The position numbers were made by a program, and so were the translations under genes. The notes under the pieces were generated by a model, which worked only from the letters and a program-made list of their open reading frames with translations, searched no databases and was not told the origin of the DNA. Source: Geothrix sp. 21YS21S-4 (GTDB lineage Bacteria; Acidobacteriota; Holophagae; Holophagales; Holophagaceae). From it: DNA of 64,000 nt. Location of the stretch: contig NZ_CP132719.1 of NCBI RefSeq assembly GCF_030845995.1, positions 2,666,001-2,730,000 of the forward strand. Reading direction: 5' to 3'. Shown in pieces: positions 42,372 through 59,279 of this stretch; the stretch's first letter is position 1, and every line of letters starts with the position of its first letter.

Positions 42372-42469
42372 TCTGAGCATTTCCCTGGGGCCATCTTGAG
42401 GGGTAGGGACGGATATCCATGAAACAGGTATTTGAAACTTCAATAAATTATATGTTTACATTTATGGCA
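42372..42469 (+). promoter_or_regulatory. CRISPR leader
   Basis: 98 bp between cas2 and the first repeat, strongly AT-rich at its distal end (TTGAAACTTCAATAAATTAT). A TTGAAA hexamer at 42432-42437 is a candidate -35; the -10 is unclear. Leader position on this side agrees with the mutated terminal repeat at the other end and with cas gene placement. Confidence 0.75.
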
Positions 42470-45400
42470 CTGCCTTCAGATCGAATGCCTTCGGGCGTTG
42501 AGCACACGTTTTCCGGGCGCACCATCACGGCTCCTTGGGGGCGCTGCCTTCAGATCGAATGCCTTCGGGCGTTGAGCACGGGTGAGTTTCACGGAGACCG
42601 GGTCCCTCCACCATCTGCCTTCAGATCGAATGCCTTCGGGCGTTGAGCACCCGTAGGCGTAGCGGGCTTCCAGCATGGCCGTCTCCTGCCTTCAGATCGA
42701 ATGCCTTCGGGCGTTGAGCACGCCCGGCAACGCCTGGTACCCCGGGAGGATCAGGCGGCTGCCTTCAGATCGAATGCCTTCGGGCGTTGAGCACCAGCAC
42801 GGCCTCCGCAAAATCACACGCAGCCAGGCGCTGCCTTCAGATCGAATGCCTTCGGGCGTTGAGCACCTGTGCTGCCTCCTGCCGAGCGAGCAGCCTACCG
42901 GCAGCTGCCTTCAGATCGAATGCCTTCGGGCGTTGAGCACTTGCAGATCGCGCGAAATGTTCCTAAATTTGTGATCCTGCCTTCAGATCGAATGCCTTCG
43001 GGCGTTGAGCACGAGTCGTTCTGGATCGTCAACTTGTGAGCGTCTTCGGCTGCCTTCAGATCGAATGCCTTCGGGCGTTGAGCACAAGACCTTGATCCAG
43101 CAACTCGCGGCGTCCAGTGCTGCCTTCAGATCGAATGCCTTCGGGCGTTGAGCACAACAGGCCGCGTTCGTATTTTCCCCAGTCACTACGCTGCCTTCAG
43201 ATCGAATGCCTTCGGGCGTTGAGCACCTCTTAGTCGGCATGCCAGACTTTCTAAAGCTGTGTTCTGCCTTCAGATCGAATGCCTTCGGGCGTTGAGCACG
43301 ATCAGCATGTCTTTTACAAACCAGGTCTCGCGGCCTGCCTTCAGATCGAATGCCTTCGGGCGTTGAGCACCTGGTGGTGGCCCCGGTGCGCGTGTGCTGG
43401 CTCGCTGCCTTCAGATCGAATGCCTTCGGGCGTTGAGCACCGATCTTTCTTCTTCTCGTCACTTCCCGTACTCTTCACTGCCTTCAGATCGAATGCCTTC
43501 GGGCGTTGAGCACAGACAGCTCGGGTTCACGACGACGCGACCTCCGGCTGCCTTCAGATCGAATGCCTTCGGGCGTTGAGCACTTCGACATCCTGACCGC
43601 CGCGGGCGCCCCGTCGAACTGCCTTCAGATCGAATGCCTTCGGGCGTTGAGCACTTCGCGTAGTCCTGCTTGCCCTGGGACTTCATCGTCCTGCCTTCAG
43701 ATCGAATGCCTTCGGGCGTTGAGCACAGGTGGTGGCCGAGCAGATGGAGCGTCGACTGGCCCTGCTGCCTTCAGATCGAATGCCTTCGGGCGTTGAGCAC
43801 CTCTGGCAGATGGCCTGCACCGGGGCGCCGTGGTGCGCTGCCTTCAGATCGAATGCCTTCGGGCGTTGAGCACTGCCGATTAATTTCGGAGGGCGACACC
43901 CTGACGCGCTGCCTTCAGATCGAATGCCTTCGGGCGTTGAGCACCGCGTAAGAGTGGTGGACACGTAGGCTCCTGCTGGCTGCCTTCAGATCGAATGCCT
44001 TCGGGCGTTGAGCACGAGTCGTTCTGGATCGTCAACTTGTGAGCGTCTTCGGCTGCCTTCAGATCGAATGCCTTCGGGCGTTGAGCACAAGACCTTGATC
44101 CAGCAACTCGCGGCGTCCAGTGCTGCCTTCAGATCGAATGCCTTCGGGCGTTGAGCACAACAGGCCGCGTTCGTATTTTCCCCAGTCACTACGCTGCCTT
44201 CAGATCGAATGCCTTCGGGCGTTGAGCACCTCTTAGTCGGCATGCCAGACTTTCTAAAGCTGTGTTCTGCCTTCAGATCGAATGCCTTCGGGCGTTGAGC
44301 ACGATCAGCATGTCTTTTACAAACCAGGTCTCGCGGCCTGCCTTCAGATCGAATGCCTTCGGGCGTTGAGCACCTGGTGGTGGCCCCGGTGCGCGTGTGC
44401 TGGCTCGCTGCCTTCAGATCGAATGCCTTCGGGCGTTGAGCACCGATCTTTCTTCTTCTCGTCACTTCCCGTACTCTTCACTGCCTTCAGATCGAATGCC
44501 TTCGGGCGTTGAGCACAGACAGCTCGGGTTCACGACGACGCGACCTCCGGCTGCCTTCAGATCGAATGCCTTCGGGCGTTGAGCACTTCGACATCCTGAC
44601 CGCCGCGGGCGCCCCGTCGAACTGCCTTCAGATCGAATGCCTTCGGGCGTTGAGCACTTCGCGTAGTCCTGCTTGCCCTGGGACTTCATCGTCCTGCCTT
44701 CAGATCGAATGCCTTCGGGCGTTGAGCACAGGTGGTGGCCGAGCAGATGGAGCGTCGACTGGCCCTGCTGCCTTCAGATCGAATGCCTTCGGGCGTTGAG
44801 CACCTCTGGCAGATGGCCTGCACCGGGGCGCCGTGGTGCGCTGCCTTCAGATCGAATGCCTTCGGGCGTTGAGCACTGCCGATTAATTTCGGAGGGCGAC
44901 ACCCTGACGCGCTGCCTTCAGATCGAATGCCTTCGGGCGTTGAGCACCGCGTAAGAGTGGTGGACACGTAGGCTCCTGCTGGCTGCCTTCAGATCGAATG
45001 CCTTCGGGCGTTGAGCACAAAAACCTTGCCACTGCCGACCTTGCCACTGCCGCCTGCTGCCTTCAGATCGAATGCCTTCGGGCGTTGAGCACATCCCCTG
45101 TTACGTAACTACTGTGGGATCAGGGGGCTGCCTTCAGATCGAATGCCTTCGGGCGTTGAGCACCAGGCGAATCCCGACAGGAGAGAGAAGATCAAGGCGG
45201 CTGCCTTCAGATCGAATGCCTTCGGGCGTTGAGCACATGGCCTCCATCTTGTCGCCCATGGCCTCCAGGCGCCTGCCTTCAGATCGAATGCCTTCGGGCG
45301 TTGAGCACTAGCTCCCCCGGAGGCGGTGCGGGGTGAGGCCCTTCTGCCTTCAGATCGAATGCCTTCGGGCGTTGAGCACGCGGCACGGGCGGCAGCATCC

Positions 45401-47092
45401 AGCTGCTGTCGGGTAATCTGCCTTCAGATCGAATGCCTTCGGGCGTTGAGCACATTAATCTAATTAGGCAGGGGGCGGTGCCTTCAGATCGAATGCCTTC
45501 GGGCGTTGAGCACGCTCCCCGGATGGTATGCCAGCCGCCTTCATGCAGTCTGCCTTCAGATCGAATGCCTTCGGGCGTTGAGCACGAGGTGAGGCCGGAG
45601 GGGAGGGCGTGGCCGTAGCCCCCTGCCTTCAGATCGAATGCCTTCGGGCGTTGAGCACAATCCGGCCGAGGCCAACAAGGAGGCGGCCATCCTCCTGCCT
45701 TCAGATCGAATGCCTTCGGGCGTTGAGCACCCGATGCGGTTCCGCCGGAGACCGGGACCCTCCAGACTGCCTTCAGATCGAATGCCTTCGGGCGTTGAGC
45801 ACCGCGACAAGGCCGTCGCCCTGCTGCTGGCGGAGGGCTGCCTTCAGATCGAATGCCTTCGGGCGTTGAGCACTCGAACGATGCGACGTTCCGCGCCTGG
45901 GCCCTCGCGTCTGCCTTCAGATCGAATGCCTTCGGGCGTTGAGCACGCCAACAAGGTCACCGCCGTCGTTGTGGTGGGTCGGCTGCCTTCAGATCGAATG
46001 CCTTCGGGCGTTGAGCACGGATCTCGCGCGGCCTGGATTCATGGTTCGTCCGTCTGCCTTCAGATCGAATGCCTTCGGGCGTTGAGCACCAGCCGTACGA
46101 GACGCTCCCCTTGACCACCTTCCGGTTCTGCCTTCAGATCGAATGCCTTCGGGCGTTGAGCACACGCGCACGGCGATGTCATCGATCTCCGCCGTGTAGC
46201 TGCCTTCAGATCGAATGCCTTCGGGCGTTGAGCACAATGAGGTCAGCTTGGAGCAAGTGAAGGAAGCGGTCCCTGCCTTCAGATCGAATGCCTTCGGGCG
46301 TTGAGCACACCCTTGAATCCCCGCGCTACGCCTGCACCACCTGCTGCCTTCAGATCGAATGCCTTCGGGCGTTGAGCACAAGACGAATCGGATGTGACCC
46401 GGCCCCCGGTTCGGCTGCCTTCAGATCGAATGCCTTCGGGCGTTGAGCACAATCAGACAGGGTGGGAACGAGCTTGCCGTCCACCTGCCTTCAGATCGAA
46501 TGCCTTCGGGCGTTGAGCACAAACTCTTCCGGGTCCGAGCGTTGACCGCCCAGCCCTGCCTTCAGATCGAATGCCTTCGGGCGTTGAGCACAACTTGTTC
46601 AGCGCCCCGTACTGCGCCCCCGTGATGCTGCCTTCAGATCGAATGCCTTCGGGCGTTGAGCACTGGACCACGAAGGCGGAGGGGAAGTCCTGCTCGTCCA
46701 CTGCCTTCAGATCGAATGCCTTCGGGCGTTGAGCACCGAAGGTCAACGGCTACCGCAAGGACGGTTTCGTCTGCCTTCAGATCGAATGCCTTCGGGCGTT
46801 GAGCACTCCACGCCCGCCCTTGGATGCGACAGGAAGAAGCCGCTGCCTTCAGATCGAATGCCTTCGGGCGTTGAGCACCCCGGCATCGGCAGGCGCACGC
46901 CCCCATCCCGAATCCTGCCTTCAGATCGAATGCCTTCGGGCGTTGAGCACCCAGTCAGGCGCGCGTCCACGCTCGACTCGAAGCGCTGCCTTCAGATCGA
47001 ATGCCTTCGGGCGTTGAGCACCCGAACCGGCCCAACATCCAGCATGGGGGCGACCGCTGCCTTCAGATCGAATGCCTTCGGGCGCTGAGCAC
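42470..47092 (+). CRISPR. CRISPR array, 65 repeats of 36 bp, 64 spacers
   Basis: Repeats start CTGCCTTCAGATCGAATGCC and end TTCGGGCGTTGAGCAC. I located 65 copies by eye, from 42470 to 47057, with spacings of 70-74 bp, so spacers are 34-38 bp. The internal stem AATGCC/GGCGTT closes a TTCG tetraloop, suited to Cas6 cleavage. Nearly all copies are identical; the copy at 45478 begins with G instead of C, and the last (47057) has GGCGCTGAGC, a typical trailer-end change, so the leader is at 42.4 kb. A 14-unit block is duplicated, leaving 50 distinct spacers. No protospacer match could be tested. Confidence 0.98.
42977..44982 (+). repeat. Exact 1,003-bp tandem duplication inside the CRISPR array
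   Basis: The segment 42977-43979 (repeats 8-21 and their spacers) recurs at 43980-44982; every repeat start in the second copy is offset by exactly 1,003 bp and the spacers read identically (for example GAGTCGTTCTGGATCG at 43013 and 44016). Confidence 0.95.
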
Positions 47093-47198
47093 TGAATGCG
47101 GCTTTCCCTCGCACCCCAAGGACGGAAGTCGAAGGCGAGGCAGCGAGCAAAGACCATGAGTGAAACCACGGGGCTCGAAAGATCTGAGGCACAACAAC

Positions 47199-47707: not shown

Positions 47708-50356
47708 ATGGCTACCATGGGACCGGTCGCCTTCTTCCCCATGCCGCTCCCGTTCCCGTCCCCCGCTTTCCCGTCGCGCCCGCCGCGGGGACCGCTGTGG
47801 CTTGCGCTGGGGGTGCTGGCGGTGGGACTCGCGGCGACGCTGCTGGCCTGGAACGGGGCCCGGCTCCGGCGGATCGAGGGCGATCGCGGCCGGCTGGCCC
47901 GATTCGTGGGACGGACGGAGTGGGGGCTGCGGAACCGGCTGGGGCGCTACGAGGACATCCTCCGCGGGGCGCAGGGGATCCTGGCCCTCGACCGGGACGA
48001 TCCGACGCCGGAGGAGTGGAAGGCCTACGTGGACCGGCTGGACCTGCCCGGCCGCCATCCCGGACTGGCGAGCCTCGCGTTCGTCCGGCCCATCCCCGAG
48101 CGCGGCGTGGAGGCCTTTCTCAGGGCCCGGCCGCGGCTGAAGGGGCGGCTGGGCCGACCCGTCGCGGATCCGCTCCCGCCCGGGGAAGCGGCGTTGGACG
48201 GCGGCCGGTTCGTCATCGAGCTGTGCGAGCCGCGATCCGACGGAGATATGGCGCCGGGCCTCGAGCTGAGCGCCAGCCGCAGCCAACGGATGGCGGCGGA
48301 GCGGGCCCGGGATTCGGGCAACGCGGTGCTGTCGGGGCTGCTGTACTTCAGCCCCGAAGCGGGGCGCAAAGAAGCGGTGACGCTCTTCCTTCCCGTGTAT
48401 GCGGGGATGGACGCCCCGACGACTCCGGCGGAGCGGCGGCAGCGCCTGCGCGGTTGGGTCTCCGCGGGAATCCTGCTGCGGCCCCTCGTGGACGACCTGC
48501 TCCGCGGGGAGGACGGCGCCCTGGCGTTCGAGATCGTGGACACGTTTCCGGCGGCCGGCCCCCGACGGCTGGCGACCGGCGGCGAGTGGCCGGAAGGAAC
48601 GGCGCCTTCGCAGATCCGCACCCTGGATGCGGGAGGCCGCGCCTGGCAACTGCGCTACGCCATTCGGCCGGGCTTCTACCACACCGAAGGGCGCAACCAG
48701 CCGCTGCTGATCCTGGTAGGGGGACTGATCCTCACCTTCTCCCTCACCACGATGGTGTGGTCCCTGGCGGGAACCCGGGTCCGGGCGCTGGGGCTGGCGC
48801 AGGGCATGAACGCCTCCCTGTCCGAGGCCCTTCAGCGGACCCGCAGCCACATGGCCTTCACGCCCCTCGCCGTGATCGAGACGGACGCCGCGTTCCGGAT
48901 CCGCGAATGGAACCCGGCGGCGAAACGGATCTTCGGCTACGGGCGGGAAGCGGCCCTGGGGCGGGATCCGCGGTTCCTGGTCCCCCCCGAGCTTCAGTCC
49001 GAGGTGGCCGCGCGCCGCGAGGCGCTCCTGACCGGGGCGGCGGGGCTGCGCCTCACCATGGAGAACGTGACGCGGACGGGCCAGCGGATCCTGTGCGACT
49101 GGTACAACACGGCCCTGCGGGACGGCGACGGCCGCCTGCTCGGGGCCATCTTCATGGCGGACGACATCACCGAGCGCCGCCGCGCCGAGAGCGTCCTGCA
49201 GCAGACCCAGAAGCTGGAGAGCCTGGGCGTCCTGGCGGGGGGCATCGCCCACGACTTCAACAACCTGCTGACGGCGATCCTGGGCAACACGGAGATGGCC
49301 CTGGAGTTCGCCCGCGGCCACCTGGACCTCCAGGCCGCCCTCCACCGCATCGAGTCCACCACCCAGCGCGGCTCCGACCTGGCCCGGCAGCTCCTGGCCT
49401 ACGCGGGCAAAGCGCACTTCGCGGTGAAGCCCCTGGACCTCAACGCCGTCATCGCCGAAATGGGCGATCTGCTGGCGGTGTCCATCTCCAAGAAGGTGAC
49501 CCTTCTCCGGGACCTCCAGCCGGGCCTGCCGCCGGTGGAAGCGGACGCCGCCCAGTTCCAGCAGGTGGTGATGAACCTGGTGATCAACGCCTCCGAGGCC
49601 ATCGGGGACCGGCCGGGGACGGTCACGGTCCGCACGCGGGCCGAGGAATGGGCGGCGTGGCGGCTGGCGGCGGAATTCCCGGGCCAGGTGCTGGAACCGG
49701 GCCTGTTCGTGCGGATGGAGGTGGAGGACGACGGGGCCGGCATGGACGCCGAGACCATCGGTCGGATTTTCGATCCCTTCTTCACCACCAAATTCACCGG
49801 CCGGGGCCTGGGGCTGTCGGCCATGCTCGGGATCGTGCGCGGCCACAAGGCGGGGCTCCACGTGGCGAGCGTCCAGGGCAAGGGAACCACGTTCACCCTC
49901 CTGTTCCCCGCGGGGGAAACCACCGTGCTGCTCCCCTCGCCCGAGCCCGCGCCCCAGCCCAAGGTCACGGGGACGGTGCTGGTGGTGGACGACGAGGGGC
50001 TCCTCCGCGATCTGGCCCGCATGGCGCTGGAGGGCGCGGGTTTCCGGGTGGAGGAGGCCCGCGACGGAGCGGAGGCCGTGGAAGCGGTGGGCCGCCGCCC
50101 GGCCGCCTTCGACGCGGTGCTCCTGGACATGACCATGCCGCGGATGGGCGGCGCGGAGGCCTTCCAGAGGATCCGGGCGCTGGCGCCGGCGATGCGGGTC
50201 CTCCTCACCAGCGGCTACACCCAGGCCGACTCCCTCGAATCGCTCGAAGGGCTGTCCCCGGACGGGTTCCTGCAGAAGCCCTTCCGGATGGGCGAACTGG
50301 TGGAAAAGATGCGGGAACTGCTGGTGGCGCCCCCCCGCCGAGGGATGCCCGAATAA
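47708..50356 (+). CDS. CHASE-PAS hybrid histidine kinase with receiver
   Basis: An 882-residue membrane sensor. TM1 about residues 29-48, an extracytoplasmic CHASE-type domain about 75-310 (GAQGILALDRDDPTPEEWKA; LAFVRPIPERGVEAFLRARP), TM2 about 335-356 (LLILVGGLILTFSLTTMVW), PAS about 375-490 (AFTPLAVIETDAAFRIREWN), an NtrB-type HisKA (GGIAHDFNNLLTAILGN), HATPase_c (NLVINASEAIGD; RGLGLSAMLGI) and a C-terminal receiver (VLVVDDEGLLRDLARMA; Asp in VLLDMTMPRMGG). The HDFNN phosphosite is of the two-component type that often drives sigma-54 activators. The ATG at 47717 is an alternative start. It lies just upstream of the redox block, but coregulation is unproven. Confidence 0.9.
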   Translation: MATMGPVAFFPMPLPFPSPAFPSRPPRGPLWLALGVLAVGLAATLLAWNGARLRRIEGDRGRLARFVGRTEWGLRNRLGRYEDILRGAQGILALDRDDPTPEEWKAYVDRLDLPGRHPGLASLAFVRPIPERGVEAFLRARPRLKGRLGRPVADPLPPGEAALDGGRFVIELCEPRSDGDMAPGLELSASRSQRMAAERARDSGNAVLSGLLYFSPEAGRKEAVTLFLPVYAGMDAPTTPAERRQRLRGWVSAGILLRPLVDDLLRGEDGALAFEIVDTFPAAGPRRLATGGEWPEGTAPSQIRTLDAGGRAWQLRYAIRPGFYHTEGRNQPLLILVGGLILTFSLTTMVWSLAGTRVRALGLAQGMNASLSEALQRTRSHMAFTPLAVIETDAAFRIREWNPAAKRIFGYGREAALGRDPRFLVPPELQSEVAARREALLTGAAGLRLTMENVTRTGQRILCDWYNTALRDGDGRLLGAIFMADDITERRRAESVLQQTQKLESLGVLAGGIAHDFNNLLTAILGNTEMALEFARGHLDLQAALHRIESTTQRGSDLARQLLAYAGKAHFAVKPLDLNAVIAEMGDLLAVSISKKVTLLRDLQPGLPPVEADAAQFQQVVMNLVINASEAIGDRPGTVTVRTRAEEWAAWRLAAEFPGQVLEPGLFVRMEVEDDGAGMDAETIGRIFDPFFTTKFTGRGLGLSAMLGIVRGHKAGLHVASVQGKGTTFTLLFPAGETTVLLPSPEPAPQPKVTGTVLVVDDEGLLRDLARMALEGAGFRVEEARDGAEAVEAVGRRPAAFDAVLLDMTMPRMGGAEAFQRIRALAPAMRVLLTSGYTQADSLESLEGLSPDGFLQKPFRMGELVEKMRELLVAPPRRGMPE

Positions 50357-50407: not shown

Positions 50408-50423
50408 TGTGGCGTGGATCACA
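50408..50423. promoter_or_regulatory. CRP/FNR-like operator upstream of the hemerythrin-Nfn fusion gene
   Basis: TGTGG-CGTGGA-TCACA, one mismatch from the TGTGA-N6-TCACA consensus. A TAGACA hexamer at 50444-50449 would place a start site near 50456, which puts the operator centre at about -41, the class II activator position. Confidence 0.5.
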
Positions 50424-50498: not shown

Positions 50499-53276
50499 AT
50501 GCCCGATACGGCTACCAACCTGATCAGCGCCGACAACCTCCCCGCCCCCCACTGGCACGCCACCCATCAGGAAGCCCAGGGGCGACTGACGGCCATGGGC
50601 CAGGCCCTGGCCGCTTCGGACTGGAAGGCGGTGGACCGGGGGGCCCGCTGGATCTTCGAGGTGCTGCGGCCCCACAACGAGGCCGAGGAGCGGGAGCTGT
50701 TCCCCCTGCTGGAGGAGATCGGCGCCGAGGCCCTCCACCAGCGGCTGCATGACGACCACCGCCAGATGTGGGAGCTGAACCTGCAGCTGCTGGCGGAGAT
50801 CGACGACGGCCAGGTGCGCGCCCCCCGCTCCCTCACCCTGCTGGGCCAGCGGCTGATCGACCTGATCCGCGACCACATCGAGGCGGAAGAGCGCCTGATG
50901 CTGCCCCTGCTCAAGGGGAAGACCCTGTTCTGGTCCGACGCGGAGACCCAGGACGGGTACCTCATCCTCGAAAAGAAGCTCATCGCCCCGGAGACCTGGT
51001 CCTTCATCGTCCAGGCCCCGCAGGTGGCCCGCGGCCGGAAGCCCGGCCAGTTCTTCATGGTGGCGCCCTTCCCCGAGAGCGAGCGCATCCCCCTCACCCT
51101 GGCCGGCGGCGACGCCCGCCGCGGCTACATCCACTTCATCATGCAGGAGGTCGGCGCCACCACGAAGGCCATGGGCCGCCTGAGCGCCGGTGACCGCCTC
51201 TACGCCGTGGCCGGCCCCATGGGCGCCCCCACCGAGCTGGTGGGGGAGGGCACCATCGTCCTGATGGCCGGGGGCTACGGCTCCGCCGCCATCCTGCCCG
51301 CCGCCGAGGAACTGCACGCCAAGGGCCGCCGGGTCATCACCATCCTGGGCGGGCGCAGCAAGGAGCGCGTGCTCCTCGCCGACGAGCTGGGCGCGGCCTC
51401 CGCGGAACTGATCGTCACCACCGACGACGGCAGCCTGGGCCGCCAGGGACTGGTCACCGACGCCCTGAAGGAACTCATCGCCCGGGAACCCATCGCCCAG
51501 GTGGTGGCCGTGGGCCCGCTGCCCATGATGCGGGCCGTCTCCAACCTGACCCAGCCCCACGGCATCTTCACCCTGGTGAGCCTCAACGCCCTGATGGTGG
51601 ACGGCACCGGAATGTGCGGCGGCTGCCGCGTGAGCGTGGGCGGCCAGACCAAGTTCGCCTGCTTCGACGGCCCCGATTTCGACGGCCACCAGGTGGACTT
51701 CGACATGCTCCGCATGCGCCAGGACTGGTACAAGGAAGAGGAAAAGGGCATCTGCGACCCCTCGGAATGCCGCATCGGCCGCGTGGCCGCCACGGGTCCG
51801 GTGGACTATTCCCAGTACCTGAACGAGCCCGTGACTGAACTGGACTGGCAGAACCTGGACCTGCGCGCCATCAAGCCCAGCCAGAAGATGAAGATCCCCC
51901 GCCAGGATATGGCCTGCCAGTCGCCCGAGATGCGCGTGGGTAACTTCGACGAAGTGAGCCTGGGGCTCTCCGCCGACCAGGCGAAGCTGGAGGCCGCCCG
52001 CTGCATCATGTGCAAGCACCCCACCTGCATCGAGGGCTGCCCGGTGAGCATCAACATCCCGGCCTTCCTCCAGCGGATCGTGGACGGCGATCCCCAGGGC
52101 GCCGCCCGCGTCATCAAGGAGAGCTCCTCGCTGGGCTCCGTCTGCGGCCGCGTGTGTCCGCAGGAGAAGCAGTGCGAGATCAAGTGCGTGGTGGGCATCA
52201 AGGGCCTGCCCGTGTCCATCGGCCGCCTGGAGCGCTTCGCCAGCGACTCCATGCTGGGTTCCCAGGAGCTGCCGCCCGTCGAGCCCCCCACCGGCAAGAA
52301 GGTGTCCGTCATCGGCGCGGGTCCCGCGGGCCTCACGGTGGCCGGCGAGCTGATCAAGAAGGGCCACAAGGTCACCGTCTACGACGCCTTCCACAAGCCC
52401 GGCGGGGTGATGCTCTACGGCATCCCCGAGTTCCGCCTGCCCAACCGGATCGTCGATCAGGAAGTGGATACCCTCCGCCGCCTGGGCGTGACCTTCGTGA
52501 TGAACACCCTCGTGGGCCGCAGCATGACCCTGGAGGACCTGCGCCGCGAGCACGACGCGGTGTTCATGGGCACCGGCGCCGGCCTGCCCAAGATGATGGG
52601 CATCCCCGGCGAGGAGTACAAGGGCGTCTACACCGCCAACGAGTTCCTCACCCGCATCAACCTGATGCGCGCCGACCTCTTCCCCAACTACACCACGCCG
52701 GTGACGGTGGGGAAGAACGTGGTCATCGTGGGCTGCGGCAACACGGCGATGGACGCCGCCCGCGCCGCCCGCCGCATGGGCGCCGAGAAGGTGACGGTGG
52801 TCTACCGCCGCACCGTGAAGGAATCCACGGCCCGGAAGGAGGAGCTGGAGCACGCGCAGGAAGAGGGCGTGGACTTCAAGTTCCTCACCACCCCCGTCCA
52901 GCTCCACGGGAACGAGAAGGGCTGGATGACCCACGCGGAGTGCGGGGTGATGGAGCTGGGCGAGCCCGGCCCCGACGGCCGCCGCAGCCCCAAGATGACC
53001 GACGAGCGCCTGATGCTCCCCTGCGAGACCCTGGTGGTCGCCCTGGGCTTCGACGTCAATCCCCTCCTCGCCATGACCGACAAGGGCCTCAAGACCCTCA
53101 AGGGCGGGGTCGTGGTGGTGGACGACGAGACGGGGGAGACCTCCCTTCCCGGGGTCTTCGCCGGGGGCGACGTCATCACGGGCGGAGCCACGGTGATCCT
53201 GGCCATGGGCCAGGGCCGGCGGGCCGCTGCGGCCATCCATCAGCGGCTCGTACCCGAGCCCCAGGGCGTGGTCTGA
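50499..53276 (+). CDS. Hemerythrin-NfnB-NfnA fusion (ferredoxin-NADP+ oxidoreductase/transhydrogenase type)
   Basis: A 925-residue protein with three parts. Residues 1-150: hemerythrin HHE cation-binding domain (HWHATHQEAQ; LRPHNEAEERELF; HDDHRQM; RDHIEAEERL) with a full set of diiron ligands. Residues about 155-430: FNR-like FAD/NAD module of the SudB/NfnA-small-subunit type, ending in the [2Fe-2S] Cys motif GTGMCGGCRVSVGG. Residues about 450-925: GltD-like large subunit with two [4Fe-4S] motifs (CIMCKHPTCIEGCP; CGRVCPQEKQCEIKC), FAD-binding GAGPAGLTVAGEL and NADP-binding GCGNTAMDAAR. The last two parts are normally separate genes. It is followed by PFOR, so it probably moves electrons between ferredoxin and NAD(P)H. 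Confidence 0.92.
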   Translation: MPDTATNLISADNLPAPHWHATHQEAQGRLTAMGQALAASDWKAVDRGARWIFEVLRPHNEAEERELFPLLEEIGAEALHQRLHDDHRQMWELNLQLLAEIDDGQVRAPRSLTLLGQRLIDLIRDHIEAEERLMLPLLKGKTLFWSDAETQDGYLILEKKLIAPETWSFIVQAPQVARGRKPGQFFMVAPFPESERIPLTLAGGDARRGYIHFIMQEVGATTKAMGRLSAGDRLYAVAGPMGAPTELVGEGTIVLMAGGYGSAAILPAAEELHAKGRRVITILGGRSKERVLLADELGAASAELIVTTDDGSLGRQGLVTDALKELIAREPIAQVVAVGPLPMMRAVSNLTQPHGIFTLVSLNALMVDGTGMCGGCRVSVGGQTKFACFDGPDFDGHQVDFDMLRMRQDWYKEEEKGICDPSECRIGRVAATGPVDYSQYLNEPVTELDWQNLDLRAIKPSQKMKIPRQDMACQSPEMRVGNFDEVSLGLSADQAKLEAARCIMCKHPTCIEGCPVSINIPAFLQRIVDGDPQGAARVIKESSSLGSVCGRVCPQEKQCEIKCVVGIKGLPVSIGRLERFASDSMLGSQELPPVEPPTGKKVSVIGAGPAGLTVAGELIKKGHKVTVYDAFHKPGGVMLYGIPEFRLPNRIVDQEVDTLRRLGVTFVMNTLVGRSMTLEDLRREHDAVFMGTGAGLPKMMGIPGEEYKGVYTANEFLTRINLMRADLFPNYTTPVTVGKNVVIVGCGNTAMDAARAARRMGAEKVTVVYRRTVKESTARKEELEHAQEEGVDFKFLTTPVQLHGNEKGWMTHAECGVMELGEPGPDGRRSPKMTDERLMLPCETLVVALGFDVNPLLAMTDKGLKTLKGGVVVVDDETGETSLPGVFAGGDVITGGATVILAMGQGRRAAAAIHQRLVPEPQGVV

Positions 53277-53390: not shown

Positions 53391-56951
<3,561 letters not shown>

Positions 56952-56960
56952 GGAGCAGCC

Positions 56961-57953
56961 ATGAACCTCTCCACCACCTACCTCGGCCTTGATCTCGCGC
57001 ACCCCCTGATGGCGGGCGCCTCCCCCATGGTTGACGACATGGGAATGGTGAAGCGCCTCGAAGACGCGGGCGCCTCCGCCCTCGTGATGCACTCGCTCTT
57101 CGAGGAGCAGATCACCCGCGAAGAGCTGGGCACCATCATGGACATGGAGCTGCACGCCAACTCCAATCCGGAAGCCCTCTCCTACTTCCCCGAGCCCGAC
57201 GAGTTCCGCCTGGGCCCCGAGAAGTACCTGGAGCAGCTCCGCCGCGTGAAGGAGGCCGTGTCCGTCCCGGTCATCGCCTCCCTCAACGGCACCACGCCCG
57301 CGGGCTGGCTGCACTACGCCCAGCTCATGGAGCAGGCCGGCGCGGACGCCCTGGAGCTGAACGTCTACTACCTGGCGACGGACCCCTCGGAGTCCGCCGC
57401 CCAGGTGGAGAAGCGCACCCTGGACGCCGTGAAGATGGTCAAGTCCCAGGTGAAGATCCCCGTCGCCGTGAAGCTCTCGCCCTTCTTCTCCTCCCTGGCC
57501 CACTTCGCCGTGGAGCTGGAAGCCGCGGGCGCGGACGGCCTGGTGCTCTTCAACCGGTTCTTCCAGCCCGACATCAATGTGGAAGAGCTGATCGCCGAGC
57601 CCAGCCTCCAGCTGTCCACGCCGTCGGACCTTCTCCTCCGCCTGCGCTGGCTCGCGGTGCTGCGGCACCACGTCAAGGGCAGCCTCGCCATCACCGGCGG
57701 CGTCCACGACGCCGTGGGGGCCCTCAAGGCCATCATGGCGGGCGCGGACGCGGTCCAGATGGTCTCCGCCCTCCTCATCCACGGCCCCGAGCGCCTGGCC
57801 CAGTCCCGGGCCATCCTCGCCGAGTGGCTGGAGGAGCACGAGTATGCGTCCCTGGCCCAGGCCCGGGGCAGCATGAGCCTGGAGAAGTGCCCCAACGCCC
57901 AGGCCTTCACCCGCGCGAACTACATGCGGATCCTCAACGGATGGCGGGCCTGA
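56961..57953 (+). CDS. Dihydroorotate dehydrogenase-like flavoprotein
   Basis: A 330-residue FMN-binding TIM-barrel protein of the DHOD-like family (STTYLGLDLAHPLMAGASPM; ALELNVYYLATDPSES; IPVAVKLSPFFSSLAHFA; GGVHDAVGALKAIMAGADAVQ). These paralogues are often found next to PFOR and are distinct from the pyrimidine-pathway PyrD, so an electron-transfer or unknown oxidoreductase role is more likely than UMP synthesis here (known neighbourhood pattern, by recall). It is 9 bp downstream of nifJ, hence cotranscribed, and followed by a strong hairpin at 57971. Confidence 0.85.
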   Translation: MNLSTTYLGLDLAHPLMAGASPMVDDMGMVKRLEDAGASALVMHSLFEEQITREELGTIMDMELHANSNPEALSYFPEPDEFRLGPEKYLEQLRRVKEAVSVPVIASLNGTTPAGWLHYAQLMEQAGADALELNVYYLATDPSESAAQVEKRTLDAVKMVKSQVKIPVAVKLSPFFSSLAHFAVELEAAGADGLVLFNRFFQPDINVEELIAEPSLQLSTPSDLLLRLRWLAVLRHHVKGSLAITGGVHDAVGALKAIMAGADAVQMVSALLIHGPERLAQSRAILAEWLEEHEYASLAQARGSMSLEKCPNAQAFTRANYMRILNGWRA

Positions 57954-58059: not shown

Positions 58060-58096
58060 TGGCAGTGACCATCCGATCTCAACTGCGCAGGTGACC

Positions 58097-58666
58097 ATGC
58101 TCCCTCTGTCCCAGTCCTCCGGTTACGCCGTACTCGCCATGAGCTGCCTCGAAGATCCGGGCGGCAAGCCCACCCTCGTCGTGGACGTGGCCGCGCGGAC
58201 GGGCTTTCCCCGCCCCTACCTCTCCAAGATGATCCACAAGCTGGCGAAGGTGGGGTTGGTGATGGCCAAGCGCGGGAACAAGGGCGGCGTGGTCCTCGCC
58301 CTGGCCGCCCGGGAGATCACCCTCGACCTGATCGCCGAGGCCGTGGACGGCGCCGAGTGGCGCAACCAGTGCCTCCTCGGCTTCAAGGAGTGCACGGACG
58401 AGCGCGCCTGCCCCGCCCACACCTTCTGGAAGGCCGAGCGCGACCACATCCACCGCTGCCTCAAGGACATCTCCCTGGAGGAGATCCGCGCCTTCGAGCA
58501 GCACAGCCGCACCTGGCGCCTCGCCGACGCTTTGCCGGAACGCAAGCTGAAGCCCGCCGCCAAGCGGACCGCCAAACCGGCCGGTGCCAAGCCCGCCGCC
58601 AAGAAGCCCGCGGTGCCGCGGAAGCCGGCCGCCAAGGCCGCTCCCGTCAAGAAGGCCGCCCAGTAA
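58097..58666 (+). CDS. Rrf2-family [Fe-S] regulator with Ala/Lys/Pro-rich C-terminal tail
   Basis: A 189-residue transcription factor. Residues 1-135 are a standard Rrf2 fold: winged helix (SGYAVLAMSCLEDPGGKPTL; PRPYLSKMIHKLAKVGLVMAKRGNKGGVVLA) and the three Cys ligands for an Fe-S cluster (QCLLGFKECTDERACPAHTFW). After residue about 150 comes a 40-residue basic tail with repeated PAAK/KPA units (KPAAKRTAKPAGAKPAAKKP), resembling histone H1-like or AlgP-like tails. The ATG at 58097 is preferred over the GTG at 58091. It immediately follows the PFOR operon and likely senses oxygen, NO or Fe-S status for it. Confidence 0.9.
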   Translation: MLPLSQSSGYAVLAMSCLEDPGGKPTLVVDVAARTGFPRPYLSKMIHKLAKVGLVMAKRGNKGGVVLALAAREITLDLIAEAVDGAEWRNQCLLGFKECTDERACPAHTFWKAERDHIHRCLKDISLEEIRAFEQHSRTWRLADALPERKLKPAAKRTAKPAGAKPAAKKPAVPRKPAAKAAPVKKAAQ

Positions 58667-58683
58667 GGAACCTTCGTCCTGGA

Positions 58684-58724
58684 AAAGCGGGGGTGCAGCC
58701 GATTGAGGCCGCGCCCCCGCTTTC
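58684..58724. terminator. Bidirectional terminator between the two Rrf2 genes
   Basis: Inverted repeat AAAGCGGGGG (58684-58693) and CCCCCGCTTT (58714-58723) with a 20-nt loop, between convergent genes. Tails of A on the left and T on the right allow function in both directions. Confidence 0.8.
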
Positions 58725-58739
58725 TTTCGGGACCGTCCT

Positions 58740-59186
58740 TCAGCGGAAGCCGTGGTCGGCGCGGAAGCGCTCCACGCCGGGATCCTGATGGCGCGCCATG
58801 TCCGCCACGGTCACGGCGCGGAGGCGCGCCAGGATCGAGGTGAGGGTCTCCTTCCAGAACTCGTGGAGGACGCACGGCGTCTCGTCCGTGCAGCCGGACA
58901 GCCCCACCATGCACCGGTCCCGCCAATTGACGCCGTCGATGGCCTCTGACAGGTCCTCCAGGGTGATCTCCCGGGAAGGCTTGGCCAGCACCACCCCGCC
59001 GTGGTGGCCGCGGCGGGCCGTCACCAGGCCCTTCTTCGCCAGCTTGTGCACCAGCTTGGAGAGGTAGGAGCGGGGAATCCCCGTATAGTCCGCCACGGCC
59101 TCCACCAAAACGGGCTGGCCGCCCGGCTCCTGGAAGCAACGCATCGCTCGCAGCGCGTAACCGGTGGTCTGGGACAAGGGGAGCAC
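58740..59186 (-). CDS. Second Rrf2-family [Fe-S] regulator
   Basis: A 148-residue paralogue of the adjacent Rrf2 protein, without the basic tail. Winged helix: TTGYALRAMRCFQEPGGQPVL and PRSYLSKLVHKLAKKGLV; cluster cysteines in RCMVGLSGCTDETPCVLHEFW. The GTG at 59186 has GGAGG 7 bases upstream. It converges on the first Rrf2 gene. A CRP/FNR-like operator lies upstream at 59264. Likely a redox or NO sensor; targets unknown. Confidence 0.9.
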   Translation of the reverse strand: MLPLSQTTGYALRAMRCFQEPGGQPVLVEAVADYTGIPRSYLSKLVHKLAKKGLVTARRGHHGGVVLAKPSREITLEDLSEAIDGVNWRDRCMVGLSGCTDETPCVLHEFWKETLTSILARLRAVTVADMARHQDPGVERFRADHGFR

Positions 59187-59263: not shown

Positions 59264-59279
59264 TGTGATCTGCATCACG
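59264..59279. promoter_or_regulatory. CRP/FNR-like operator upstream of the second Rrf2 gene
   Basis: TGTGA-TCTGCA-TCACG, one mismatch from the palindrome TGTGA-N6-TCACA. On the minus strand, TTGACT (59256-59251) lies just downstream as a possible -35. Confidence 0.55.

Follow-up and report, generated by a model that had tools for sequence, protein, structure and literature searches.

In Geothrix, a bacterium of soils and sediments, the gene at 50499..53276 (+) encodes a hemerythrin (HHE) domain fused to both subunits of an Nfn-type oxidoreductase. Positions are those of the window, the whole stretch of 64,000 nucleotides that was analysed. At about even confidence, we propose that the fused single chain works as an Nfn-type ferredoxin/NADH/NADP(H) oxidoreductase with a built-in diiron site as terminal reductase. 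Among flavin-based bifurcating enzymes Nfn serves as a model, and it is usually regarded as an O2-sensitive connection of ferredoxin to NAD(P)H.

Architecture of the fusion protein

The gene had an ATG start and was read as a single intact open reading frame of 925 aa (P0001), which formed one conserved frame across Holophagaceae. Three modules were identified in the chain, namely HHE (residues 18-138), the Nfn small subunit (155-419) and the Nfn large subunit (476-917). Pfam matched Hemerythrin at 18-138 (E 1.9e-10) and DHODB_Fe-S_bind at 364-400, and in the C-terminal half Fer4_20 at 480-585 (E 5e-38) and Pyr_redox_2 at 601-906. These matches and the PDB sequence matches agreed with the three-module single chain that an earlier note on this DNA had described. 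A sequencing frameshift joining separate genes, which would have undone that description, was excluded, as the identical fused frame was present in almost all of the Geothrix genomes searched and also in other genera of Holophagaceae. An assembly frameshift or chimera is hardly conceivable and was rejected, because dozens of independent assemblies share the frame, including Geothrix fermentans DSM 14018 (L088), and no point in its favour was found. The linker between HHE and Nfn (141-153) was short and led into GY-ILEK, the invariant beginning of the small subunit, and an extra cysteine in the inter-module segment, C424, was also invariant. AlphaFold2 gave the full-length chain a pLDDT of 54.6, and domain placement was not obtained from so poor a model.

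The small-subunit module (50961..51755, +; NfnA of the Clostridium/Thermotoga naming, SudB) combined an FNR-like FAD part with a [2Fe-2S] motif. It matched 5jca_S over residues 155-416 (E 2e-75) and 4ylf_A (E 9e-61) in the PDB sequence search, and PRK06222 with 336 bits, over its cut-off. The flavin motif ERIPLT at residues 195-200, which has the form ERxPxT, was invariant in 45 sequences. The [2Fe-2S] signature of Nfn is DGTGMCGxCRx10CV, with the Asp as a ligand (PMC6405883). The fusion carried it as D368-GTGMCGGCR-x10-C388 (51600..51662, +), including this atypical Asp ligand, with D368, C373, C376 and C388 invariant; the last position, a non-ligand Val in the signature, was F389 in all 45. 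The large-subunit module (51924..53249, +; NfnB, SudA, GltD-like), with two [4Fe-4S] motifs, a bifurcating-type FAD site and an NADP(H) site, matched 4ylf_B over residues 467-919 (E 2e-147) and 5jca_L (E 1e-140). The cysteines C502, C505, C510 and C514 (52002..52040, +) and the motif C549GRVC553PQExxC559xxxC563 (52143..52187, +) were invariant in the 45 sequences, and both sets corresponded to those of T. maritima NfnB. R646, which aligned with the flavin-N5 arginine R187 of T. maritima, was invariant as well, and so was the NADP-phosphate arginine R770, while R771 was kept in 44 of 45. All Nfn signature residues tested were present, and these residues together with the PDB matches confirmed the Nfn/Sud-type identity; ferredoxin/NADH/NADP+ activity and bifurcation are predictions from the sequence.

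The HHE domain (50550..50912, +; PF01814, 41.8 bits with the cut-off at 25.3) contained the ligands H23, H59xxxE63, H87 and H126xxxE130. The six residues were invariant in 45 homologues, although much of the remaining domain varied, so the loss of diiron ligands in relatives that had been considered as a refutation did not occur. Oxygen-carrier hemerythrin has five His, with HxxxH in helix C. The fifth-His position, H87+4, was Trp (W91) in 44 of the 45 sequences, Arg in one and never His. An O2-carrier site was rejected on this ground, and the hemerythrin ligands first noticed in the frame can be refined to a predicted diiron site with the 4-His/2-Glu set of the YtfE/ScdA (RIC) type. AlphaFold2 modelled the HHE part as a four-helix bundle with pLDDT above 90 over most of residues 20-138. 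Foldseek with this model against the PDB returned helical bundles, including YtfE, as weak matches only, none below 0.001, and YtfE was also the best, weak match in the PDB sequence search with the HHE part (E 0.003-0.02). ScdA_N (PF04405) was not found in the protein by Pfam, and the HHE part had no rubredoxin or other visible electron relay. It was under purifying selection (median dN/dS 0.185) and diverged faster than Nfn, with a mean pairwise identity of 71% versus 86-88%. The same six ligands were retained in a cupin-HHE protein, the closest of the other relatives seen.

Genome context and distribution

The next gene encoded pyruvate:ferredoxin oxidoreductase (PFOR; 53391..56951, +; TIGR02176, 1805.6 bits). 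This adjacency, pointed out in the earlier note, was invariant in Geothrix wherever the contig extended far enough, and a second genus (L047/L094) likewise had PFOR adjacent to the fusion. Further downstream were a dihydroorotate-dehydrogenase-like protein (56961..57953, +; PRK07565, 426 bits, above cut-off), syntenic in Geothrix, and two Rrf2-family regulators, at 58091..58666 (+; PF02082, E 5e-22) and, convergent, at 58740..59186 (-; PF02082, E 3e-29); a C-x6-C-x5-C spacing was read off both sequences. The upstream neighbour, a CHASE-PAS-histidine kinase-receiver protein (47708..50356, +), was kept in most Geothrix loci that reached that far. Between it and the fusion, roughly 75-90 bp ahead of the start codon, lay a CRP/FNR-type palindrome, TGTGGCGTGGATCACA (50408..50423, +), which was conserved in an alignment of 27 Geothrix upstream regions. 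The pattern was enriched in the genome, with 20 matches versus 2 in the reversed control. Other such sites stood close to genes for malic enzyme, a TPP-dependent enzyme and GcvT, all metabolic, so the idea that the palindrome proves a stress regulon was not supported.

Genome content was examined family by family. Neither another Nfn nor RnfC nor another GltD was found in the genome, and there was no real GltB, only a weak partial PF01645 match of 95 positions. Nine other HHE domains were present, including one in a RIC-like ScdA_N + HHE protein (L120). Automatic names would make the fusion the small subunit of glutamate synthase with unrelated additions, and TIGR01316, 'NADPH-dependent glutamate synthase', indeed matched the large-subunit module above its cut-off (563 bits). 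However, GltB and another GltD were missing from the genome, the nearest solved relatives were Nfn subunits, and a complete Nfn small subunit lay on the same chain. A glutamate synthase role is extremely improbable and was rejected on genome content.

Nearly every Geothrix genome sampled had the fusion, as did additional genera of Holophagaceae; among 396 Acidobacteriota genomes it was found nowhere outside this family. A GTDB-wide scan with HHE patterns, which detects only close HHE relatives, did not find it elsewhere, and the best matches of a plasmid search were Nfn without HHE only. One genus of Holophagaceae (L037-L039) had the same fused Nfn without HHE, which indicated that HHE is dispensable for the core activity. 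Another relative (L040) had a two-gene Nfn with a stand-alone HHE gene just downstream. In one genome (G069), a frame of 1233-1251 aa (L041/L098) seemed to add an N-terminal domain of 320 aa. It was most likely an open reading frame upstream of the true start, because its residues were of low complexity and did not resemble those of the homologues, and the start by homology lay at about L098:8001. In another Acidobacteriota family (L131, L132 and L134), the C-terminus of a fused Nfn carried rubredoxin-like Cys motifs together with a rubrerythrin-like domain in which two ExxH motifs were seen, and PRK12775 covered L131 over its full length with 1638 bits. Since this domain is at the opposite end of Nfn and in another family, diiron-type fusions arose at least twice.

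Relation to known systems

Both subunits of Nfn from T. maritima (4YLF/4YRY) and P. furiosus (NfnI, 5JCA) were matched nearly over full length, with shared cluster motifs and arginines. The fusion differs from these enzymes in being a single chain in small-large order with an N-terminal HHE, and in having an invariant Phe, not Val, after the last [2Fe-2S] Cys and the extra C424. The earlier note had taken the two subunits to be separate genes normally, but fused single-chain Nfn is already known (PRK12778, NF009414; 'pattern B', PMC6405883), so this part is not new. PRK12778 has the same fused module order and matched residues 155-917 over nearly the whole profile; its 933.8 bits fell short of the 1103 bits set as curated cut-off, and neither it nor pattern B contains a diiron domain. 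PRK12775 (NF009413), a fused Nfn with a C-terminal ferritin/rubrerythrin-like domain, shares with our protein a diiron-type domain on the fused Nfn chain. However, its rubrerythrin-like domain and rubredoxin-like Cys motifs are C-terminal and belong to a different Nfn clade, and our protein lacks the ferritin-like C-terminus, with the match ending at profile position 752 of 1006. The doubt whether the whole architecture might be common and already characterised therefore holds for the fused Nfn part only: as far as we searched, no paper described the HHE addition or characterised an HHE-Nfn protein, in keeping with the earlier note.

The four His and two Glu are common to the fusion and YtfE/ScdA (RIC), although the fusion lacks ScdA_N and is covalently tied to an NAD(P)H/ferredoxin enzyme. 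RIC proteins with this core reduce nitrite, YtfE also reduces NO, and Fe-S repair roles have been assigned to them (PMC12412097). The [FeFe]-hydrogenase-rubrerythrin HydR of Clostridium perfringens, which performs H2-driven H2O2 reduction, has the same design of a low-potential redox enzyme with a diiron terminal reductase; it differs in its unrelated electron-input module and in having rubrerythrin where the fusion has HHE (PMC11926857). A flavodiiron-rubredoxin-reductase fusion is described as a water-forming oxidase (PMC9364112). In Campylobacter, the hemerythrin HerA shields Por and Oor from O2 and prevents their damage (PMC4257069).

Proposed function of the diiron domain

We propose that the Nfn core would link PFOR-made ferredoxin with NAD(P)H. 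Nfn may hand some of its electrons to the fused diiron site, either directly or via another chain of an oligomer, and this site would reduce O2, H2O2, NO or nitrite. The fusion would be a self-sufficient reductive scavenger beside O2-labile PFOR and ferredoxin, and normally also the cell's Nfn. The RIC-type ligand set, which is not that of an O2 carrier, makes O2 sensing or storage less likely than the reduction of O2, peroxide, NO or nitrite. The earlier suggestion that the domain senses or scavenges O2 or NO was therefore shifted from sensing towards reductive removal. If Nfn feeds electrons to such a domain, the occurrence of another diiron-type domain on this enzyme elsewhere in the phylum is to be expected. 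In favour of the reductase we counted the Nfn core residues, the invariant ligands and the purifying selection on HHE; by analogy, the HydR and flavodiiron fusion precedents and HerA protection of Por/Oor, with PFOR adjacent here; and that no other Nfn, RnfC or GltB/GltD was found in the genome and that HHE lies beside a two-gene Nfn in L040. Counted against it were an HHE without a visible relay, one genus without HHE, the faster change of HHE and the CRP/FNR-type site near metabolic genes.

HHE might instead be a sensor that gates Nfn, in which a conformational shift upon O2/NO binding or diiron oxidation turns the exchange between ferredoxin and NAD(P)H on or off, with no net catalysis at the iron. 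Signalling proteins can contain hemerythrin domains (PMC4919030), the ligand set is invariant, and the short linker into GY-ILEK would permit conformational coupling. However, W91 stands where O2 carriers have their fifth His, and a gating geometry shared with the parallel fusion, whose rubrerythrin-like domain is at the opposite terminus, is less economical than a shared electron supply. Rubrerythrin-like domains are typically enzymes. We consider gating unlikely, and the gating of the ferredoxin pool that had been put forward earlier gained no specific support. The precedents of HerA (PMC4257069) and RIC Fe-S repair (PMC12412097), together with the two Rrf2 regulators with Cys triads in the same cluster, would also suit a scavenger or iron-binding module that exchanges no electrons with Nfn. 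Such a module would bind O2/NO or deliver iron for Fe-S repair, and the fusion would merely co-localise it with Fe-S-rich Nfn and PFOR. This is quite unlikely in our judgement, because the genome already has a free-standing RIC-like protector (L120) among its nine other HHE domains, and a stable family-wide fusion to one redox enzyme suggests more than Fe-S proximity. A mainly structural HHE that helps the fused Nfn to oligomerise or stay stable, and whose metal chemistry is unimportant, would fit its faster evolution and its absence from one genus that retains the fused Nfn. This is improbable, since the six ligands are invariant in 45 sequences despite the variable domain and are the same in the cupin-HHE relative.

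Beyond the terminal reductase reading, we tentatively suggest, at somewhat less than even chances, an Nfn whose fused diiron site is a third exit for electrons. Through it, O2, peroxide, NO or nitrite would be reduced by ferredoxin, NADH and NADPH in one polypeptide. Flavin-based electron transfer would then have a branch that responds to oxidants and has two or more independent origins, with diiron folds that differ and sit at opposite termini of the same enzyme. 'Glutamate synthase' labels conceal this redox enzyme family in Acidobacteriota. The fusion provides a one-gene soluble system for studying the protection of O2-labile ferredoxin metabolism and for asking whether Nfn can drain electrons to a diiron site. 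The Holophagaceae-wide HHE fusion and the parallel rubrerythrin-like fusion suggested that some anaerobes wired oxidant removal into the Nfn hub.

Fusion gene and its distribution

The frame at 50499-53276 (+) was found to be a single open frame, as the earlier note had claimed; it has 925 residues, an ATG start and no internal stops. Pfam domains were assigned to hemerythrin (HHE, 18-138), a DHODB-type [2Fe-2S] domain (364-400), Fer4_20 (480-585) and Pyr_redox_2 (601-906). The closest solved structures by sequence were Nfn 5jca_S/4ylf_A for residues 155-416 and Nfn 4ylf_B/5jca_L for residues 467-919. The NCBIfam model of fused Nfn, PRK12778, matched residues 155-917 with 933.8 bits and fell short of the 1103 bits that the model requires. 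TIGR01316 and PRK06222 exceeded their own cut-offs, and PRK12775 (fused Nfn with a C-terminal ferritin/rubrerythrin-like domain) matched solely across the Nfn part.

The window is part of a complete 3.08-Mb genome. A frame of 920-930 aa recurred in nearly all Geothrix genomes searched, so an assembly frameshift was ruled out. G. fermentans DSM 14018, G. limicola, G. rubra, G. oryzisoli, G. terrae and G. paludis were among the carriers, and the Geothrix genomes without the frame were incomplete or fragmented assemblies. The fusion was also present in several further Holophagaceae genera (g11-g16). Genus g18 (L037-L039) carried fused Nfn without HHE, and certain members of the family had no fused Nfn. 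Among the matches listed from 396 genomes drawn evenly from Acidobacteriota, HHE and Nfn were never together outside Holophagaceae. In those other families, Nfn was either split over neighbouring genes or fused into one chain that lacked HHE. The best plasmid matches were Nfn without HHE. A GTDB-wide scan with HHE-domain patterns gave 50 loci, every one of which fits an origin in Holophagaceae. One of them was labelled Deltaproteobacteria, but a contig with the same match appears in the Holophagaceae genome G076. One genome of the family, G086, had two copies (L043:4702-7455 and L044:6358-9150), with greater divergence between the HHE domains than between the Nfn parts.

Fused Nfn has been described as patterns B-D in a survey that says nothing of hemerythrin or rubrerythrin in its text (PMC6405883). 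In the open-access full-text literature, no description was found of hemerythrin with NfnAB, of a hemerythrin-Nfn fusion in Geothrix or of an Nfn-rubrerythrin fusion. What was not found in open-access papers is thus the hemerythrin addition, and HHE-Nfn is not a new class.

Predicted diiron site and evolution of the fusion

H23, H59, E63, H87, H126 and E130 were unvarying across 45 homologues, with H23 absent in one truncated sequence only. Several HHE tryptophans were likewise unvarying, and other positions were free to change. W91 occupies the position of the fifth histidine of the O2-carrier type. The predicted ligands are the same four His and two Glu that are reported as the core set of YtfE and ScdA (PMC12412097). 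AlphaFold2 gave a four-helix bundle for the domain, with pLDDT > 90 across most of 20-138. Median dN/dS in Geothrix pairs was 0.185 for HHE and 0.12-0.13 for the Nfn modules. This meant that HHE was constrained yet evolving faster than the Nfn modules. The nearest other HHE seen was in a cupin-HHE protein (L105:7611-8423; 36% identity, six ligands identical). The window's genome contained ten hemerythrin/HHE domains, one of them in a RIC-like ScdA_N-HHE protein at about 2395.7 kb of G000:C1.

In the tree of concatenated Nfn modules, Holophagaceae fused Nfn formed a single clade (SH-aLRT 100). Since the position of the HHE-less g18 among its basal branches was not resolved, HHE may have been gained late or lost secondarily; either fits the tree. 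In family f34 of Acidobacteriota, Nfn was extended at the C-terminus by rubredoxin-like cysteine motifs and by a rubrerythrin-like domain that bears two ExxH motifs (L131:4073-7054 (-), L132:4317-7292 (-) and L134:1-2757). These chains matched PRK12775 along the full length of the model. L131 and L132 were included in the tree, and L134 was too short. The f34 fused Nfn fell in another clade, which argues that Nfn was joined to a predicted diiron-type domain at least twice independently. In G085, a metagenome-assembled genome with 8% contamination, a stand-alone HHE gene was located 55 bp downstream of a two-gene Nfn of another clade (both within L040:5313-8129). The C-terminal sequence of the HHE protein, GAGYLMLP, is similar to the beginning of the fused small subunit, so it is possible that HHE was split off by gene fission and kept beside an Nfn.

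Gene neighbourhood and upstream site

PFOR (53391-56951, +) directly follows HHE-Nfn, as the earlier note had stated. A dihydroorotate-dehydrogenase-like (DHOD-like) protein and two Rrf2-family regulators came next, the second convergent. Where Geothrix contigs reached, the order was CHASE-histidine kinase, HHE-Nfn, PFOR, DHOD-like, Rrf2 and a second Rrf2 on the opposite strand; the kinase was undetected at some loci. The Rrf2 pair (58091-59186) had C-x6-C-x5-C in both proteins and adjoined PFOR in the Geothrix loci reaching that far. In another genus (L047/L094), the order was PFOR, DHOD-like, HHE-Nfn, and PFOR was not seen within several kb at the g16 loci examined. The window also contained a large CRISPR-like array (42451-47098) in which a repeat containing CTGCCTTCAGATCGAATGCCTTCGGGCGTTGAGCAC occurs 65 times at about 72-nt spacing. 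A segment of about 1 kb was duplicated in tandem within it, from 42977 onward and again at 43980.

A conserved CRP/FNR-type palindrome, TGTG-N7-TCACA, was located upstream of HHE-Nfn (50408-50423), and another before the second Rrf2 gene (59264-59279). The pattern was enriched genome-wide compared to a reversed control. Among the genes assigned to other copies, by proximity only, were those for malic enzyme, a TPP-dependent enzyme, GcvT, an amino-acid kinase and a porin. These neighbours suggested metabolic rather than stress control.

Nfn core and proposed function

All published Nfn signatures testable by sequence were kept. These included ERIPLT, the [2Fe-2S] motif DGTGMCGGCR-x10-C with its Asp, the cysteines for both [4Fe-4S] clusters in the CGRVCPQExxCxxxC form of T. 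maritima, the flavin N5 arginine (R646, corresponding to R187 of T. maritima) and the NADP arginines R770/R771. However, F389 replaced the Val after the last [2Fe-2S] cysteine and was invariant in the homologues. An additional cysteine, C424 (51768-51770), was located between the modules and was invariant in 45 homologues.

Sequence shows the domains, predicted ligands, conservation and synteny of HHE-Nfn, which is best read as a putative reductase. Electrons would enter the Nfn core from ferredoxin and NAD(P)H, with the predicted diiron site serving as an attached terminal acceptor that would reduce O2, H2O2, NO or nitrite. We favour this reading because the HHE ligands are conserved and a parallel rubrerythrin-type Nfn fusion exists. 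Published enzymes share the design, namely hydrogenase-rubrerythrin (PMC11926857) and flavodiiron-rubredoxin-reductase (PMC9364112). It is also favoured because the same four-His/two-Glu set performs NO/nitrite chemistry (PMC12412097) and because a hemerythrin protects PFOR-type enzymes (PMC4257069). Gating of Nfn by HHE, passive scavenging by the domain and a structural role are possible alternatives. For the reductase, we infer electron transfer to HHE, the substrate and protection of PFOR.

The window's genome showed no second Nfn and had no RnfC, GltD or real GltB that could be found. HHE-Nfn is therefore probably not part of a glutamate synthase, and it is probably the main ferredoxin-NAD(P)H link of the cell.
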